Below, in pieces: positions 4,354 to 20,334 of a stretch of 21,010 nt of DNA (the first letter of the stretch is position 1; the number at the start of each line of letters is the position of its first letter). Both the position numbers and the translations under genes were made by a program. The notes under the pieces are model-generated. The model ran no database searches. It was not told the DNA's origin and worked only from the letters and a program-made list of their open reading frames with translations. The stretch spans positions 1 to 21,010 of the IMG/VR virus record IMGVR_UViG_3300034374_006200; one strand, 5' to 3'. Source of the stretch: a virus.

Positions 4354-4800
4354 ATGATAAAACTCCCCGCTACTACAATCGGTCTTATTGGTGAACACTT
4401 AACAGCAGCCGCCCTAATTACATTAGGCTGGAAAGTTTCGCTCGCCCAACAAGACCACCTCGACCTTGTTGCTTGGCACCCCGACATAGAAAACGAGTTT
4501 ATACGCATCCAAGTCAAAACCTCGTTTTGCCGAGCGCAAAGTAAAAGTAGAAATCCCTGTTACCATTTTCAGAACGGCTCTGGTAGGTTTAAAAAAATTT
4601 TGGACCACCTCACAAAATACGACATCCTTGCTCACTGCGCCGCTGACCGTAGACGATGCCACTTCCAAGCTGCCCATACCGTGTTTAAAGTAACTGAGCG
4701 CTATCGCCCAGAACGCTTCGACGATCCATCCATCGAACAAGATTCTTGGACCAAGGCTCTTGAACACATGCGCGATTACAAAAAATCTAGAAACCGCTAG
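4354..4800 (+). CDS. PD-(D/E)XK family endonuclease-like protein (148 aa)
   Basis: The only convincing plus-strand gene. The N-terminal 60 residues show a nuclease core in the expected order: an early Glu in a helix (IGEHLTAAAL, Glu14), a helix ending GWKV, then Asp37 in HLDLVAW and Gln53-x-Lys55 in RIQVKTS. This D...QxK arrangement fits the family of small PD-(D/E)XK nucleases with Gln in place of the usual Glu (PDDEXK_5-like). The C-terminus has several Cys and His residues and a basic end. No clear ribosome site precedes ATG 4354. Possible roles are recombination or Holliday-junction processing, host DNA breakdown, or a homing-type nuclease. The sequence does not decide between them. Confidence 0.7.
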   Translation: MIKLPATTIGLIGEHLTAAALITLGWKVSLAQQDHLDLVAWHPDIENEFIRIQVKTSFCRAQSKSRNPCYHFQNGSGRFKKILDHLTKYDILAHCAADRRRCHFQAAHTVFKVTERYRPERFDDPSIEQDSWTKALEHMRDYKKSRNR

Positions 4801-5040: not shown

Positions 5041-5397
5041 TTACGCGCCTATTTTTAACAGGCCGCTAGCTAGTAGCTTTTTGCGATAGAAAGTTAAAAT
5101 ACGCGTCGCGCCTTGGGTAGTAGCTAATACGCTATCGGGCGCGTCCATAGCCTCGATAAGCGCGGCTTGGGTAGCCGAGCCGCCCAGCTGGTCCAAAACG
5201 TAAAGGATAGCTTGGGCTTGGGGCGGAAGCGGCTTTTCTAAGGCGGCTAGCTTTTCGACCGCGTCAGACGCAAGCGCCAACTTAACCCCGTTACGGCCTT
5301 TAGGCGACGGGGCGGGGATACCGCAACGCGCCACAGATTTAGGGTCAACGGTAGGGGTTACGGTAGCGTTAGTAGTAGGCTTAGAAATCTTAGACAT
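5041..5397 (-). CDS. Winged-helix-like small protein, paralogue A (118 aa)
   Basis: Function unknown. It is a clear paralogue of the gene at 6327-6686. Both have a Thr/Ala/Pro/Lys-rich flexible N-terminus, a GIPxP...NGxK segment (about 26-40 here), then a folded C-terminal half with LPPQA.(A/V)IL..LD.LGG.ATQ (about 57-77), followed by T.Q...RI..FYRK.L (about 94-109). The helix-turn-helix-like ATQAALIEAM and the final FYRKKLLASGLLKI wing suggest a winged-helix DNA-binding fold. I start at ATG 5397 because GGAG lies upstream at good spacing and a strong promoter (5450-5477) lies inside the longer reading frame. It is probably a DNA-binding or regulatory protein acting on the neighbouring repeats, which is inference. 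Confidence 0.75.
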   Translation of the reverse strand: MSKISKPTTNATVTPTVDPKSVARCGIPAPSPKGRNGVKLALASDAVEKLAALEKPLPPQAQAILYVLDQLGGSATQAALIEAMDAPDSVLATTQGATRILTFYRKKLLASGLLKIGA

Positions 5398-5449
5398 ATC
5401 ATTATTCTCCAAAATCGGAAGCAGCAACCGCGCCGCCTCAACACATACT

Positions 5450-5477
5450 ATTATATGCATTTTCATACTAAAGTAAA
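5450..5477 (-). promoter_or_regulatory. Sigma70-like promoter for the 5041-5397 gene
   Basis: On the minus strand TTTACT (5472-5477) and a perfect TATAAT (5450-5455) are separated by 16 bases. An A-rich region upstream (about 5485-5520) could act as an UP-like element. It leaves a leader of about 45 bases before ATG 5397. Confidence 0.65.
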
Positions 5478-6326: not shown

Positions 6327-6686
6327 TTAGTCAAGCTTGATGAACTGGTCTTCAACCAACAGCTTGCGATAGAAGTCATAAATACGCTTTGGTGTTTGCT
6401 GGGTCTTGAGACCGTTGTCGAGCAGCGCGTCAACAACCTCACCCTGAGTGGCAGTACCGCCAAGCGCATCGAGCGTATTCAAGATGACCATCGCCTGAGG
6501 AGGCAGCTTGCGATTAGCAGGGACATCCTTAGTCAAGAGAGTGACCTTGCGGCCATTGAACCCGTTGACAGCTGGACGTGGAATGCCAGAGTTGCCGACT
6601 GGTGAAACAGCTTTCAGCTTTGGAGCTGGCTGGGCAGCTTTCGCAGGAGCTGTTGAAGATGATACTTTTTTCTTTGCTTGTGCCAT
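6327..6686 (-). CDS. Winged-helix-like small protein, paralogue B (119 aa)
   Basis: Homologue of the 5041-5397 product, with the same two-part design. The N-terminus is Ala/Lys/Pro-rich. GIPRPAVNGFNGRK lies at about 34-47, LPPQAMVILNTLDALGGTATQ at about 61-81 and QQTPKRIYDFYRKLL at about 96-110. ATG 6686 is used because GGAGG precedes it by five bases; ATGs at 6698 and 6722 would place that site inside the gene. It has its own promoter (6743-6771) and terminator (6295-6318), so it is a single-gene transcription unit. Both flanks carry GTCAATCA repeats. A DNA-binding role, perhaps on these repeats, is a hypothesis. Confidence 0.75.
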   Translation of the reverse strand: MAQAKKKVSSSTAPAKAAQPAPKLKAVSPVGNSGIPRPAVNGFNGRKVTLLTKDVPANRKLPPQAMVILNTLDALGGTATQGEVVDALLDNGLKTQQTPKRIYDFYRKLLVEDQFIKLD

Positions 6687-6742
6687 GATGGCCTCCATTC
6701 TACTTTCTAATTGGTCGAGCACCCCGCTCTAACCATGCTCTT

Positions 6743-14334: not shown

Positions 14335-14697
14335 TTAAAGCTCGTCTTCGTCAAACTTAATGTTACCTTCGAATATCGCTTGTTCAAGCTCTTCATCAGT
14401 TAGCTCACGATAATCTTTAAACATGTTCTTTTTCTTAACTTTCTTTACAGTTTTCTTTAACGGCGGTTTAGGTTTCACTATATCTTGAGGTGGCGCAGTT
14501 GGTACTGCTCCTCGCAACCGTTCTTCTGTTTTAAAGATATGACCGCATGTTTTGCATTTACGGCGGCGGAAATAATGTTCGCCTCTGTCTCTGCTTTCTA
14601 CAACTTCCGTTGTCTTCCAAAGATCAGCGTGGTTACACCTTTTGCGACGAGTAGTTTGATTCCGCGCCCCTTGTCCAGCCCCTTGTGCTTTCGGCAT
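14335..14697 (-). CDS. Zinc-ribbon protein resembling the NrdR N-terminus (120 aa)
   Basis: Residues 20-60 read as a zinc ribbon: RCNH, then VVESRDRGEHYFRRRKCKTCGHIFKTEE. The run of a Ser-Arg pair, three Arg, Cys-x-x-Cys-Gly and a Phe-(T/K)-T/x-Glu closely resembles the zinc ribbon of NrdR, the ribonucleotide-reductase repressor. The NrdR ATP-cone is absent and the first zinc pair is Cys-Asn-His rather than Cys-x-x-Cys. The C-terminal half is a Lys/Pro-rich linker (KPKPPLKKTVKKVKKK) and an acidic end. It overlaps the end of polA by 65 bases. The start at 14697 has AGGTG. It is probably a small nucleic-acid-binding protein. Confidence 0.65.
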   Translation of the reverse strand: MPKAQGAGQGARNQTTRRKRCNHADLWKTTEVVESRDRGEHYFRRRKCKTCGHIFKTEERLRGAVPTAPPQDIVKPKPPLKKTVKKVKKKNMFKDYRELTDEELEQAIFEGNIKFDEDEL

Positions 14698-16588
14698 GTT
14701 CTATCACCTTTTCTATTTCTTTTGCTTCACCCCAGTTTGGACCGAGATCAATGTCCACTTTAATCGGAACACGCATTTCTACGCAATGCTCCATAATATC
14801 TTTGATTTTAGATATTTCAGCATCGGAAGATACTGAGAAGTCTAATTCGTCATGTACTTGAATATGGGGTACAATACCTTCATCATAAAGCATCTTCATA
14901 GCCATCTTAGTCATGTCCGCCGCGCTACCTTGGATCAACTTATTCATAGCTTTATGAGTAAACGCTCTTTTGATTGCGTTACCATATTCTGTGTACGCTG
15001 TTTTATGATCCATGATTTTGCGTGTGCCAAACTGGGCTGGCTCCCACTTATCGAAGCGGCACCGCCGTCCTAACAGCGTTCTAATACTTCCTTGTTTTGA
15101 AGCCCTCTGTACTGCTCTCTCCGAAAGTTCTTTGACGAAAGGTACTCGGTCGTGATACTGAGCGAACAATTCTTTACCTTCTTCTAATGTAAGCCCGAGG
15201 CTTTCTGAAAGTTTAGTAACCCCCATCGAATAAAACAAACCAAGGTTGATGTTCTTAGCTTGCTTGCGCTCGATACCCGCCATGTCCGCCACGATCTGAT
15301 GGAAGTCGGCGTCTTCGTGTTGAAAGGCTTGTACGGCCTCCTCTGCGCCGCGTAGACCCATCATATCGGCGTAGTGTACCACGATCCGTGGTTCTTGTTG
15401 CGAGTAGTCAAAAGCTCCCCACTGGCACCCTTCTTCAGGGATAAATAATGAACGGATGGCTGTCCCTATCTCAGGGTCTCGGGCAGGAACCTGTTGAAGG
15501 TTAGGGTTTGAATAACTGAAACGTCCTGTAACCGTACCTCCGTTATCAGAACGTAAAGGATGTAACTCAGCATGAATGCGTCCATTTACTTGGTTCCCCA
15601 TAATCATTCCGTCAATGAATGTAGTTCTAGCTTTATTCATCTTACGAGCTTGAACGATTAACCGAGGCATTTCATGCGGGTGAGCTTCAAGCCAAGATTG
15701 TTGGAATGACGGAGATCCCAACTCTGTACGATTATATTCGAGGCCAAGGGTATCGAAAGCCTTTTGGATAGATGCGTTTGCCCAGACTTCAACTTCATCC
15801 CCGCATAGTGACTTTATGCGATGAAGGGCGTCCTCCTCCTTGGCTCTAAATTTCTTAGATAAAGTTTCTGCCTTTTCCAAATCTACTCGGACACCGCGCC
15901 AGCGCATTTCGATTAGTAGCGGCGTAAGCGAAGATTCAAGATCGAAGATCGACCATAAATCTTGCTTTGTCATTTCGGCTTTTTGCCACTCCCACAGCTT
16001 TAAGGTCAGTACCGCGTCTTGCTCAGCATACGGTCCTACAAACATAGGCGGTAGTTCATGAAGACCGCCTTTAGCATCAACGCTCCATGCTTCGGCGGCA
16101 TCGCGTAATAAACGCTCATCCTTCTTTTCTTGTAAGTATTCCCTACCGAGGGCGTTTAAAGCATAACTAAACCTATTTTCATCAATCAAGGGTGCGGCGA
16201 CCATTGTATCAATGATCTTGTTTTTAATCTCGATACCTTCTCTACGCATCCAGCCAATATCATAAGACGCGTTATGGCAAACTATAGATGCATTGCCACT
16301 GGTGATCTTTTTCATCCAGTTAAGAACAAGAGTTTTATCCAGATTGCCTCCGCTTCTATGTGCGATAGGAAGATACCCCGACCAGTCTTTAGTCGCGACT
16401 GCGAATCCAACAACAGTCCCGTCGTTTCTAGCCCAACCCGCTCCTTTTTCTTTAATGTTCGGGTCGTGGGTTTCTAAGTCGATACAAATCTCAGAAGCGG
16501 TACTAAGATCAGGTAAGTTTTCTGGAGGTGTCCAATCACTGTCCGGACTAAACAACGGTTGTTGCAAAGGTACGTCTTTTAAAGCCAT
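14633..16588 (-). CDS. polA: DNA polymerase I-like family A polymerase with 3'-5' exonuclease (651 aa)
   Basis: Replicative polymerase of the phage. The exonuclease domain has all three motifs: DLE at 37-39, NASYD with Asp110, and YAEQD with Tyr187/Asp191, so proofreading should be active. The polymerase domain has motif A FDYSQQEPR (Asp394), the O-helix Arg441/Lys445/Leu449/Tyr453, and motif C HDE at 579-581. There is no 5'-nuclease domain, as is normal for phage versions. Leu449 is equivalent to Phe762 of E. coli Pol I. Motif A has Gln-Glu-Pro where Ile-Glu-Leu is usual. ATG 16588 is chosen over the longer frame to 16666 because AAGGG lies six bases upstream and the protein then begins just before the exonuclease. 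A hairpin covers the ribosome site. Confidence 0.95.
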   Translation of the reverse strand: MALKDVPLQQPLFSPDSDWTPPENLPDLSTASEICIDLETHDPNIKEKGAGWARNDGTVVGFAVATKDWSGYLPIAHRSGGNLDKTLVLNWMKKITSGNASIVCHNASYDIGWMRREGIEIKNKIIDTMVAAPLIDENRFSYALNALGREYLQEKKDERLLRDAAEAWSVDAKGGLHELPPMFVGPYAEQDAVLTLKLWEWQKAEMTKQDLWSIFDLESSLTPLLIEMRWRGVRVDLEKAETLSKKFRAKEEDALHRIKSLCGDEVEVWANASIQKAFDTLGLEYNRTELGSPSFQQSWLEAHPHEMPRLIVQARKMNKARTTFIDGMIMGNQVNGRIHAELHPLRSDNGGTVTGRFSYSNPNLQQVPARDPEIGTAIRSLFIPEEGCQWGAFDYSQQEPRIVVHYADMMGLRGAEEAVQAFQHEDADFHQIVADMAGIERKQAKNINLGLFYSMGVTKLSESLGLTLEEGKELFAQYHDRVPFVKELSERAVQRASKQGSIRTLLGRRCRFDKWEPAQFGTRKIMDHKTAYTEYGNAIKRAFTHKAMNKLIQGSAADMTKMAMKMLYDEGIVPHIQVHDELDFSVSSDAEISKIKDIMEHCVEMRVPIKVDIDLGPNWGEAKEIEKVIEHAESTRGWTRGAESNYSSQKV

Positions 16589-16614
16589 GCTCTTCCCTTT
16601 CAGTTTGGAAGAGC
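16589..16614 (-). promoter_or_regulatory. Hairpin over the polA ribosome-binding site
   Basis: Perfect 8-pair stem GCTCTTCC/GGAAGAGC around a 10-base loop, ending directly against the polA ATG. The AAAGGG ribosome site spans the loop and the 3' arm, so folding would limit polA translation. An AT-rich AATAATAATATAG stretch precedes it. Confidence 0.6.
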
Positions 16615-16625
16615 TTACTATATTA

Positions 16626-17042
16626 TTATTCACCTTGTATAGTCCTGTCGCACATTTCAGCATCAATTAGAAAGAGATAGCGACGCAGGTCACGGATATC
16701 GTCTAAAATACCTTCGGGGCGCTGGTCTGCTTCCATAGCCGCGAAGATATCGTAACCATGTTCGTTAACCTGTTTTTCTAACCGATCCCATTTACGCGCC
16801 GCCATCATGAACGCGCCTATACCGCCGCGCTGTTTCCAGCTATCGCCATAGGACTGCTCGGCCTTATGGAGCTTATCCGCGTCCTCGATACCTAAACACA
16901 TAACCCTGTTTATAATCGCGCTATGAGGCTCGTCAGTAACGTAGTCTGCGCCCTCTAATAGCTTGCGCTTCATAAACTCCTCGTGACGCTCTTGCTCTAC
17001 ACGCTCTTGCTCTATTTCTTTCTTTGTAACCACTCTACACAT
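16626..17042 (-). CDS. Nmad1/DUF1599-like protein, possible nucleotide-modification partner (138 aa)
   Basis: The core SYGDSWKQRGG, then AARKWDRLE, then ILDDIRDLRRYLFLID (about residues 64-130) fits the all-helical Nmad1 (DUF1599) pattern. That family is related to MazG-type NTP pyrophosphatases and was proposed to be associated with nucleotide modification. The N-terminus is a charged helix (VTKKEIEQERVEQERHEEF). Start ATG 17042 has GGAG six bases upstream. The in-frame TTG at 17054 is less likely. It overlaps the hydroxymethylase/TS gene by 31 bases. It may act on nucleotide pools for the modified base or for polymerase supply. The family call is moderate and the function is inferred from context. 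Confidence 0.55.
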   Translation of the reverse strand: MCRVVTKKEIEQERVEQERHEEFMKRKLLEGADYVTDEPHSAIINRVMCLGIEDADKLHKAEQSYGDSWKQRGGIGAFMMAARKWDRLEKQVNEHGYDIFAAMEADQRPEGILDDIRDLRRYLFLIDAEMCDRTIQGE

Positions 17043-18010
17043 GCCTTTCTCCAATCTAAAGATTTTATTGTTTTAGCTAAGTCGATAGCATCGTTAAGCA
17101 TACCTTCTTTCCAAAGCCACCAGCTTTCGACCATAGGTACAGCTGTTCCTGCAAATATTCTATTTGAATACGAAGTCCCAAAAAAGTCGCCCTCATGAAG
17201 CCAGTCGAAGAATAAGCCTAGTTCAAGGTCGAAGGTCTCAGGATCAGTAACCAAGGCTTCGTTAGCTTCTATCTCGCCTGAATCATATGGGTCGATAGGT
17301 ACGCCTATTGGTAATTTCTTTTCCAGAGGATCCCAGACTTCTTTATAAACGTGAGCGTTGTTGCTAATCTGATAATAAGTACCCATGCGACAGCCAGACA
17401 TAGCGGCGACGTATTCGTGAACCATACTGAAGTGTACGGCGTTTGCACCGTAAGCCCCCCAGATAAGATCGTTAGACCTATTCGTTACAGTCATGTCAAG
17501 CACAACTTGGTCATTTATCGGAATAGCTTTGAAATAAACTTGGGTGTTACAGGGAACGTCCTTGGATGAAGAATCAAGGTCTTTAGTTGTATCCCACATT
17601 TGAAGAACGACTCGGCGGTCGTAAGGGTTGGCTTTCAAAAGTTTTACCGCAGTAGCTAGTTGGTCATTATCAAACCAGTTGCGCCAGCGATAACCGTAAG
17701 CACCATTAACGAGTACGCCATCGTCAGAAAAGTCTGCCATCTTTTTAGCAAACTCAGTTAAAGTCGCAAGATCGTTACGACCAGCGATCATCCACAGCCC
17801 TTCTACGAAATGAAAGAAAGGATTACAGTTACGCTCTGGGCTTAATAATACACGTTCATACGGCCTCTTATACGCAGTCACAAGAGGGTTACGAAACATT
17901 AAAACTGTTCCATTACGAGAAGGCATTTCAATTAGACCACCCCCACGCAAACTTAAAACAGCTATGTTAAAAGCCTCATTTACATTTCTTGCAGTTATTG
18001 TACCTGTCAC
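17012..18010 (-). CDS. Thymidylate synthase/pyrimidine hydroxymethylase family protein (332 aa), GTG start
   Basis: Transfers a one-carbon unit from folate to C5 of a pyrimidine nucleotide. Family landmarks are NPFFHFVEGLWMIAGRND with Glu70 (63-80), YGYRWR (105-110), RRVVLQMWD (132-140), the nucleophile Cys154 in DVPCNT, NRSND (177-181), GAYGANAVHF with Asn190, and NNAHVY (217-222). In classical ThyA the Cys is followed by His; here Asn follows. The PCN form and the GAYGANAVHF block fit the hydroxymethylase-like branch (MilA-type and phage enzymes). Asn190 sits where Asn selects dUMP in TS and Asp selects dCMP in T4 gp42, so dUMP is the likely substrate. The product could be dTMP or 5-hydroxymethyl-dUMP. 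GTG 18010 has GGGAGG and overlaps the previous stop (GTGA). Confidence 0.88.
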   Translation of the reverse strand: MTGTITARNVNEAFNIAVLSLRGGGLIEMPSRNGTVLMFRNPLVTAYKRPYERVLLSPERNCNPFFHFVEGLWMIAGRNDLATLTEFAKKMADFSDDGVLVNGAYGYRWRNWFDNDQLATAVKLLKANPYDRRVVLQMWDTTKDLDSSSKDVPCNTQVYFKAIPINDQVVLDMTVTNRSNDLIWGAYGANAVHFSMVHEYVAAMSGCRMGTYYQISNNAHVYKEVWDPLEKKLPIGVPIDPYDSGEIEANEALVTDPETFDLELGLFFDWLHEGDFFGTSYSNRIFAGTAVPMVESWWLWKEGMLNDAIDLAKTIKSLDWRKACVEWLQRKK

Positions 18011-18831
18011 GGGAACCTCCCTCTTGGTTTACCTTCGCCGTTACGAACTCGTTCATATTTATCAAACTCGCACAAGCTATGTTCTATATCTCGCATCTCT
18101 AATCTAGGAAAAGACTCATAGAAAAACATCGGAGATATTTTTAGCAGTTCTAACATCTCTTTATTAAAGTCATGCTTTCTGCTTTTAAAGTTCAAATCCC
18201 TGCCGTGTATACGATTGAGACCGCGCATTGCTCCGGGACCAGCGTTAGCCCAAGTATAAATGTCTTCAGCACGATTTAATAAATGTGTGTGACGCAAATC
18301 AGTAATTATTTCATATGACATGAACGCACCTAGGTACGGAAATTGCATAAGAACCTTCCAAGAGTCTTGTAGCGTACTACCAAGGATAAGTTCATAGATG
18401 TATCGGCGATCGTCCCAAACTTTATTTATACAGGATATCACCCCATCTACCTTATCTAAGCCATCAGGGGTTTTAATTATGTATCCACCTGTTACATACT
18501 TAGATTGCTTCTTGATTTCTAGTCTTGCTACTTCTGGCTCCCAATGGACATGAAGACCGTGATCAAGGAGGGTTTGACCAGTTTCGATTAAATTAAACCA
18601 GCGGAATATGATTGTTGCCATTAAAACACATTCTTCATCCTTTAATGGATCCCGCATATTTTTACGAAACCAAACCGTCGTTTTATCGTTTTCTCTGAAG
18701 GGGTTTGTAAAACGATAAGTCTTTAAGATCTCATCGTCCGTCCACATAGATTGAGGAAAGCCCATATTTCGTTTTTCGTAAATATGGTGTCTTTCCTTAA
18801 TCCACCAAAAGAACCTTTCCATAGGTTCCAT
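18007..18831 (-). CDS. aGPT-PPlase2/HMUDK_hel family protein, thymine hypermodification (274 aa)
   Basis: I recognise the helical family first described as alpha-glutamyl/putrescinyl thymine pyrophosphorylase 2, also listed as the helical domain of 5-hmdU DNA kinases. Signatures are YRFTNPFRENDKTT (39-52), the helix IIFRWFN (74-80), the middle VWDDRRYIYELIL, and WANAGPGAMRGLNRIHGR (194-211), a glycosylase-like hairpin. There is no P-loop, so it is not a complete kinase on its own. In phages with hypermodified thymine, members of this family act on activated 5-hydroxymethyl-dU in DNA. ATG 18831 is chosen: it forms TAATG with the methyltransferase stop and has GAGG, whereas the longer frame needs TTG 18852. 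The downstream hydroxymethylase starts in its stop codon. Confidence 0.78.
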   Translation of the reverse strand: MEPMERFFWWIKERHHIYEKRNMGFPQSMWTDDEILKTYRFTNPFRENDKTTVWFRKNMRDPLKDEECVLMATIIFRWFNLIETGQTLLDHGLHVHWEPEVARLEIKKQSKYVTGGYIIKTPDGLDKVDGVISCINKVWDDRRYIYELILGSTLQDSWKVLMQFPYLGAFMSYEIITDLRHTHLLNRAEDIYTWANAGPGAMRGLNRIHGRDLNFKSRKHDFNKEMLELLKISPMFFYESFPRLEMRDIEHSLCEFDKYERVRNGEGKPRGRFP

Positions 18832-19670
18832 TATTTTTTCCTCAAAATCCAATTACAGTTATTAGCTGTTTCCGGATAAGCGGTAGCCAAAATAACACGT
18901 TGCCAGTGCTTATCGAAACGACCTTTGATGTCGTCGATGACATGCTGTGGCCAACGAAGGTTAGCGGTGTGGTTACGCTTGAAATTATTCATTTGCGTAA
19001 ACGTCCCGTAATGCCTTTCGATTGTGTAGTATTTTTCGAGGAGGGTTTTGAGTTCTTCGTATCCCCATTCGTAGACGTGGTCTTTTGGGAGAATGTCGTT
19101 TGACCCATCATGGTTCGGCGTCGAGACATATGCAATGCCGCCCTGACGCAGTTTACGACACGATGCTTCGATCCATGGTTCAATGAACTCCCTCCCCATA
19201 TGCTCAATAACTTCAGTGGTCATAAAGACGTCTATTGACTCATCCTCAACAGGGGGTTCAGAGTCGGTAGTTAAATCTTGAAGAACAATGCGACCTTTAT
19301 TACCAGTCATAGTTTTAAACCACTGGTGCTGGTCTACAGGAAGATCGTCGTCTACCCACCAATCGTCCAAGCACGCAGGATCAATGTCCATACCTACATA
19401 GCTATTTACGATTTCTTCTTTCTTAGAAACGAAAGCCTTATACAGGTAACGAAGTGTCCAAACTTCACCGCAACCGATTTCTAGAATGTCAACAGGTCGA
19501 CCAAGTTCCTTGGCTCTGTCCATAATAAGTTGACCCATTTTACAAAAGCGGCTGATATGAGCCAGTTCATCTGGTCGCCAGTTAGCTAGCGTACCAGCCC
19601 CCGCAATGTCCATGCGGGTGTTTTTAGAGTTGTTCGCGTTTACCGCGAGTTTACGACGAATGGATGCCAT
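18831..19670 (-). CDS. Class I SAM-dependent methyltransferase (279 aa)
   Basis: Rossmann methyltransferase: motif I ILEIGCG (62-68), an acidic strand end YVGMDID (91-97), motif IV IDVFMTTEVIEH (146-157) and LRQGGIAYVSTPN in the post-IV strand. The D/NPPY motif of common DNA base N-methylases is absent, so a small-molecule or modified-base substrate is more likely than plain adenine or cytosine. The C-terminus (about 195-275) is an additional helical part rich in His and Trp. It is coupled by TAATG to the hypermodification gene, which hints at a role in finishing a modified thymine. This is not shown. Start ATG 19670 has GGAG. A structured leader lies upstream. Confidence 0.82.
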   Translation of the reverse strand: MASIRRKLAVNANNSKNTRMDIAGAGTLANWRPDELAHISRFCKMGQLIMDRAKELGRPVDILEIGCGEVWTLRYLYKAFVSKKEEIVNSYVGMDIDPACLDDWWVDDDLPVDQHQWFKTMTGNKGRIVLQDLTTDSEPPVEDESIDVFMTTEVIEHMGREFIEPWIEASCRKLRQGGIAYVSTPNHDGSNDILPKDHVYEWGYEELKTLLEKYYTIERHYGTFTQMNNFKRNHTANLRWPQHVIDDIKGRFDKHWQRVILATAYPETANNCNWILRKK

Positions 19671-19878: not shown

Positions 19879-20334
19879 TTAGCTAAGAATACGAATGTAC
19901 CCTTTGTCGACCATCTCACGGTGATAGTGTTTGTAGACGCGGTCTACGCTCTGTTTAGTGGGCAGTTGCCCCTCTATCTTTTCCCAGAACATACCAACGG
20001 TGATACCGCCGTCTCCAAATTCTTCTAGCTTTTCTAACATAAGCACCATCTGCCTTGCACCTTTTTCTGGGTACTTGGCAAATGCTATTCTTGTACCAAC
20101 CCTAAGACGACCTGTATTAGAACGCCCTTGAGCCTTTAACATTTCTTCTCTACGAGCTTGCGCTTGAGAGGCAAACTTCTGAGCTTTATTATTAAAAGTG
20201 TCAAGTTCCACGACTGATTTCCCTTTATGAAATTGAGACTCATACTTATGACGAGGAAAACTTTTCTGTTCGCCGAAGTTATGATCCTTAGACCACTGCC
20301 ACGCGTCAGGTGCTATTTGTATCCAACCGCCCAT
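19879..20334 (-). CDS. Winged-helix-like protein, paralogue C (151 aa)
   Basis: The N-terminal 90 residues are basic and Lys/Arg/Gln-rich with several Trp and no recognised fold. The C-terminal 60 residues resemble the folded half of the 5041 and 6327 proteins. ARQMVLMLEKLEEFGDGGITVGMFW (93-117) aligns with PPQAMVILNTLDALGGTATQG, and KQSVDRVYKHYHREMVDKGYIRI (127-149) aligns with QTPKRIYDFYRKLLVEDQFIKL. The match is distant but collinear over the whole winged-helix-like region. It has its own promoter at 20370-20398, and ATG 20334 has GGAG upstream. A DNA-binding role is inferred. Confidence 0.65.
   Translation of the reverse strand: MGGWIQIAPDAWQWSKDHNFGEQKSFPRHKYESQFHKGKSVVELDTFNNKAQKFASQAQARREEMLKAQGRSNTGRLRVGTRIAFAKYPEKGARQMVLMLEKLEEFGDGGITVGMFWEKIEGQLPTKQSVDRVYKHYHREMVDKGYIRILS

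Follow-up and report, generated by a model that had tools for sequence, protein, structure and literature searches.

A methyltransferase gene in the place of the kinase: a candidate variant of phage 5-hydroxymethyldeoxyuridine DNA-modification operons

In the Pseudomonas phages M6 and PaMx11, a thymidylate synthase (TS) homologue of the deoxyuridine monophosphate (dUMP) hydroxymethylase type and the helical protein HMUDK_hel (hereafter HEL) are encoded next to polA, together with a P-loop kinase, an amino-acid:DNA transferase (ADDT) and tailoring enzymes (PALP plus radical SAM, or FAD plus acetyltransferase proteins). The HEL gene of both phages follows a separate P-loop gene matching the 5-hydroxymethyldeoxyuridine (5-hmdU) kinase model, weakly in the case of PaMx11, and yet another gene encodes the ADDT. 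Bacillus phage Goe26 has the kinase and HEL in one fused protein. In the HTVC023P-type pelagiphages, some of which also carry a glucosyltransferase, TS and aG/PT-PPlase1 (as HEL was formerly named) are paired next to polA and have been read as a DNA hypermodification system (PMC9599517, 2022). A further relevant system is that of the 5-hydroxymethylcytosine carbamoyltransferase found by MetaGPA (PMC8670742): the gene of this enzyme neighbours one for a TS homologue, and its product caps a phage pyrimidine at the hydroxymethyl group. Here we analyse an operon of a 21,010-base IMG/VR fragment (IMGVR_UViG_3300034374_006200, hereafter the window), in which HEL, a TS homologue and polA are accompanied by a class I S-adenosylmethionine (SAM)-dependent methyltransferase (MT).

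The order of TS homologue, HEL and polA is the same as in the M6/PaMx11 cluster, with 44% amino acid sequence identity for TS (to M6/YuA) and 37–44% for HEL (to the M6/PaMx11 counterparts). Unlike M6 and PaMx11, which possess the kinase, the ADDT and the tailoring enzymes and lack MT, the MT-HEL loci show the reverse. The likeness to the HTVC023P-type pelagiphages extends to the polymerase, since polA shares 49–55% identity with these and related phages (52–55% with the HTVC023P-type group itself); however, the main text of the HTVC023P-type account nowhere uses the word methyltransferase, and its passages on the pair discuss neither the missing kinase nor an exchange of partners. The carbamoyltransferase system differs in that the group transferred is carbamoyl, not methyl, the base is cytosine, not uracil, and no HEL is mentioned. 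In our estimate the chances are about even that the operon of the window is a variant of the 5-hmdU DNA-modification systems of phages in which a methyltransferase takes the place of the kinase, with 5-methoxymethyl-deoxyuridine as its probable product.

On the minus strand, the transcription order is the UvrD end, a small protein, MT, HEL, TS, P142 and polA. In agreement with the initial annotation, which had reported four genes overlapping by 1–31 bases and followed by polA, all the open reading frames (ORFs) are present: the MT stop codon and the HEL ATG (18831) have one base in common (TAATG), and the overlaps measure 4 bases between HEL and TS and 31 between TS and P142 (P142 ATG at 17042). 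Over 90 distinct viral loci show the order MT-HEL-TS-P142-polA, at identities down to ∼50%, a conservation far beyond chance, and MT lies immediately 5′ of HEL, overlapping or abutting it in most loci.

The TS homologue matches PF00303 and phrog_5131. Both residues singled out in the initial annotation were confirmed by alignment: Cys154 lies within a PCN motif, and Asn190 is aligned to Asn177 of Escherichia coli ThyA. The corresponding residues are PCN/N in SPO1 gp29, annotated as dUMP hydroxymethylase, PCH/N in E. coli ThyA and MCT/D in T4 gp42, a deoxycytidine monophosphate (dCMP) hydroxymethylase; the PCN/Asn state was present in all 94 scored TS homologues of the MT-HEL loci. The same two positions separate canonical from modifying TS homologues in the MetaGPA study, there for cytosine modification (PMC8670742). 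In the phylogenetic tree the TS of the window falls into a 15-row group with SPO1 gp29 (support 93/94) and, within closer range, into a 13-row group with M6 and PaMx11 (support 97/96), not with ThyA or the dCMP hydroxymethylases. The signature and this placement make 5-hydroxymethyl-dUMP (5-hmdUMP) the best-supported predicted product of the enzyme and, together with the PF18723 match of HEL, support the earlier proposal that this phage carries 5-hmdU or a derivative of it.

HEL, which contains both of the motifs quoted for it previously, matches PF18723 with 146.5 bits (cut-off 25) over profile positions 4–278 of 281. Searches of PDB sequences with HEL and with MT gave no match, and an IMG/VR scan with a single HEL sequence gave none either, alignments being required to find relatives. 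The structural model of HEL (pLDDT 93.8) has as its best chain the PaMx11 gp46 glycinyltransferase (8z2n; Z 11.3, root-mean-square deviation 3.8, 212 aligned residues), and 8-oxoguanine DNA glycosylases are matched with Z of ∼11 (OGG 3knt, 11.0); Foldseek gave an E-value of 0.2, and helical folds call for caution. A helix-hairpin-helix DNA-glycosylase-like fold is therefore regarded as likely and graded no higher, because the Foldseek E-values are weak. Twenty-one HEL residues, such as R53, D56, N87, D185, G205-P206-G207, E262, K265 and R268, are kept regardless of the partner enzyme. The possibility that PF18723 proteins are themselves pyrophosphate-displacing transferases was considered and rejected, since M6 and PaMx11 have an ADDT gene of their own and the enzymes that accompany HEL are of several kinds.

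The assignment of the first gene as a methyltransferase holds by both profile and fold. MT matches PF13489 with 36.2 bits (cut-off 27) and PF08241 with 28.6 bits (cut-off 21.2), and its AlphaFold model (pLDDT 81.6, residues 1–30 unreliable) adopts the class I SAM methyltransferase fold, with structural matches of Z up to 17, METTL6 among others. Compared with its nearest relative (locus L012), MT shows 0.05 nonsynonymous (pN) against 0.60 synonymous (pS) differences per site and is the most conserved of the five genes compared. No relative of MT was found in GTDB contigs, which hence give no hint of the host.

The HEL loci were gathered with several queries, and after the removal of identical HELs 250 distinct ones were retained; both the HEL and the MT collections are best matches to chosen queries among interrelated contigs, not a random sample. 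Partner labels come from profiles built on few sequences and neighbour calls from mechanically delimited ORFs. MT accompanies 95 of the HELs and a kinase 75 (44 of them also with ADDT), while glycosyltransferases are found with 49 in all: TAGT with 30 plus 2 mixed cases, GT4 with 10 (9 of these with an FkbM methyltransferase) and a GT-like/radical-SAM set with 7. The remaining 31 HELs have no recognised partner, some at least being truncated by contig ends. A kinase never occurs alongside MT, TAGT or GT4; Fisher values on such co-occurrence treat related contigs as independent and are not to be taken as probabilities. On the HEL tree M6-, PaMx11-, TAGT-, GT- and MT-type proteins interleave, and at least 15 changes among five partner types are required, compared with a shuffled mean of 54; the partner types thus cluster, yet were swapped repeatedly. 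TAGT has been tied to the glucosylation of phage hydroxymethylcytosine (PMC13390438). As proposed here, the kinase, the glycosyltransferase and MT would share one target hydroxyl.

Some individual loci of this survey deserve a separate description. Nine HEL-TS-polA loci (L115–L118, L122, L300, L307, L338, L340) carry a glycosyltransferase-like protein, a SPASM radical SAM enzyme and, with a few exceptions, a cytidylyltransferase/cupin fusion between HEL and TS, possibly for a sugar-derived thymine modification. In eight others (L123, L138, L140, L141, L147, L149, L152, L160) the genes after HEL encode an FkbM-type methyltransferase, a GT4 glycosyltransferase and a PD-(D/E)XK nuclease, with polA behind them. 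Microbacterium phage Neferthena (L201, 3626–8271) has a distant HEL with an Asp (dCMP)-type TS homologue, a TAGT glycosyltransferase and a gene similar to thymidine monophosphate (TMP) kinase, so HEL may serve cytosine systems too. A HEL-TS locus with no recognised partner (L230:2711–6507) has a PIG-L-like deacetylase (under the cut-off) as well as three ORFs of no assigned family upstream of HEL.

The initial annotation held a P-loop kinase to be necessary for hypermodification, noted none in the window and advised a search elsewhere in the genome. The presence of such a kinase elsewhere is not supported: PF18748 (P-loop 5-hmdU kinase) and PF18724 (ADDT) matched neither the window nor any of 30 related contigs (46–84 kb, nearly all MT-bearing and the remainder of variant types), although the positive controls M6, PaMx11 and AIIMS-Plu-RaNi were detected. 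A local profile built from five kinases gave no match in the marine loci either. Across six near-complete contigs of 54–62 kb, the sole ORF with a classical Walker A motif (GPPGTGKT) is UvrD, the other pattern matches being not P-loop-like. Likewise, no kinase or ADDT was found near MT-HEL in any of the 95 loci. The absence of the kinase is strong, not absolute, because these contigs received no completeness value from CheckV.

The same MT family occurs in a second operon type, composed of MT, a nucleoside triphosphate (NTP) pyrophosphohydrolase, a TMP kinase, a TS homologue and a dCMP deaminase, and represented by Stenotrophomonas phage AXL3, Pseudoxanthomonas phage PW916 and two Manatee Spring phages. 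AXL3 and PW916, together with more than 70 IMG/VR loci, form the other branch of the family. The MTs of AXL3 and PW916 show 28–31% identity and common invariant residues with the MT described here and are likewise encoded beside a pyrimidine hydroxymethylase homologue, but HEL is missing from this branch. A TS homologue is present in 76 of the 84 loci of this branch, most of the remaining 8 being cut off just downstream. At the position of Asn177 all 75 scorable loci have Asp, the state of the T4 dCMP hydroxymethylase, which points to dCMP as the probable substrate. With Asp in 75/75 loci of this branch against Asn in 94/94 MT-HEL loci, MT tracks hydroxymethylpyrimidine synthesis over both bases, and the hydroxymethyl group is therefore indicated as its target. 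AXL3 DNA has been reported to resist 35 of 37 restriction enzymes, the two that cut recognising only A/T (PMC7504290), a pattern as expected for modified cytosines.

As judged from its signature residues and its place in the tree, the TS homologue would hydroxymethylate dUMP to 5-hmdUMP, which polA would incorporate. HEL, as its model fold and the swapping of partners suggest, may then recognise 5-hmdU in DNA and present the base to a catalytic partner. MT, translated just upstream, would replace the M6-type P-loop kinase in this role and alkylate the exocyclic hydroxyl, a step suggested by gene association, model fold and analogy; the hydroxymethylcytosine carbamoyltransferase, which acts on the equivalent hydroxyl, provides a precedent (PMC8670742). 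The simplest product of the last step would be 5-methoxymethyl-deoxyuridine, and its likely purpose the shielding of DNA from restriction enzymes. The earlier suggestion that the methyltransferase may give a substituent not yet described thus gains support, with a substrate that stays putative. We found no literature account of MT or of a kinase-free exchange of HEL partners, the main pathway papers lying outside the search, and literature searches for phages with methoxymethyl uracil or methoxymethyl cytosine as a base returned nothing relevant, which is no proof of absence.

Several observations weigh against this pathway. The AXL3-branch MT operates in loci without HEL, so HEL need not be its partner, and a search for MT-HEL fusions found none. 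The HEL set comprises the nearest relatives of the chosen queries, and related contigs are not independent. Moreover, PF18748 scores the PaMx11 kinase itself under the cut-off, and a divergent or host kinase may exist. With such a kinase and a transferase, the DNA could contain an amino-acid-derived thymine as in M6/PaMx11, MT adding the final methyl to the substituent; the naming of HEL as a kinase domain, and its fusion to one in known phages, would fit, but the searches of the large contigs with positive controls, the five-kinase profile, the Walker A survey and the 95 kinase-free MT-HEL neighbourhoods make this route quite improbable. It is unlikely, too, that MT acts before replication, with free 5-hmdUMP or 5-hmdUTP as its substrate; the polymerase would then insert a capped nucleotide, and HEL would have another role, for instance in the reading or proofreading of modified DNA. 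The pyrophosphohydrolase, TMP kinase and deaminase kept by the HEL-free branch would suit such a scheme, and the carbamoyltransferase can use the free triphosphate as well (PMC8670742), yet the marine MT-HEL loci have no such pool enzymes near the operon, and HEL, with its modelled DNA-binding fold, stays beside MT.

The class I fold of MT is compatible with various substrates, the nearest structures, with tied Z, including natural-product, tRNA and cap N7 enzymes, and the Pfam family is as generic. The DNA might accordingly hold 5-hmdU only, or 5-hmdU altered by HEL alone, while MT targets RNA, protein or a metabolite; we find this distinctly unlikely given that MT is strictly co-located with hydroxymethylases in operons of two unrelated types and ranks as the most conserved gene in the comparison with L012. 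Very improbable is the transfer of another group from a SAM analogue (e.g. carboxy-SAM), or alkylation of the hydroxymethylated base at another atom: carboxymethyl transfer to DNA has a phage precedent (PMC12783734), but neighbour scans revealed no second SAM-using enzyme beside MT in the MT-HEL loci, CmoA not having been searched for by profile.

The positions of the operon genes and their neighbours are given in Table 1. P142, found in most HEL-TS-polA loci, had been labelled Nmad1-like, a label which was not confirmed: the protein matches no Pfam model, nor PF07659/DUF1599, which we take to be the Nmad1 model, at E up to 10. It is homologous to Pam3_54 of Pseudanabaena phage, annotated as 'nucleotide modification'.

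Table 1. Genes of the methyltransferase operon and adjacent genes in the window.
Feature	Position	Strand	Basis or remark
UvrD-like helicase, C-terminal part, open to contig end	20411..21010	-	PF13361; position kept upstream of MT in relatives
Small protein between UvrD and MT	19879..20334	-	Kept in closest relatives only; no Pfam match
MT, class I SAM-dependent methyltransferase, 279 aa	18831..19670	-	Pfam Methyltransf_23, Methyltransf_11
HEL, HMUDK_hel (PF18723, formerly aGPT-Pplase1)	18007..18831	-	Profile match, model fold
TS homologue, dUMP-hydroxymethylase signature	17012..18010	-	PF00303, phrog_5131, residues, tree
P142, conserved small protein of the module, 142 aa	16626..17042	-	Conservation; Pam3_54 homology
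polA, family A DNA polymerase with 3′-5′ exonuclease domain	14633..16666	-	PF00476, PF01612

The ORFs of the operon have good upstream GGAG-like sites, and in-frame TTG codons are present at 18852 for HEL, besides its ATG, and at 17054 for P142; promoter matches across the operon were at chance level only. Elsewhere in the window, two small minus-strand proteins (5041–5466 and 6327–6722) are paralogous (41% identity over 95 aa), the small protein between UvrD and MT being a third candidate with a weak C-terminal match. An ORF at 4354–4797, on the plus strand of a mostly minus-strand contig, shows a weak PD-(D/E)XK endonuclease likeness, and the small minus-strand protein after polA (14335–14697) an NrdR-like zinc-ribbon match, both under the cut-off.

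A broader proposition, to which we give somewhat less than an even chance, is that one MT family makes 5-methoxymethyl-deoxyuridine in the marine phages of this group and 5-methoxymethyl-deoxycytidine in AXL3-like phages. In this reading HEL would be no kinase component as such but a general 5-hmdU-presenting platform on which kinase, methyltransferase and glycosyltransferase have been exchanged. Since AXL3 and PW916 are cultured, the part concerning MT is open to test now. If true, this would mean a new type of DNA base reached by a short three-gene route; the 'kinase helical domain' would be recast as an interchangeable DNA-side module, and the variety of its partner genes in metagenomes would become a readable code for the base present.

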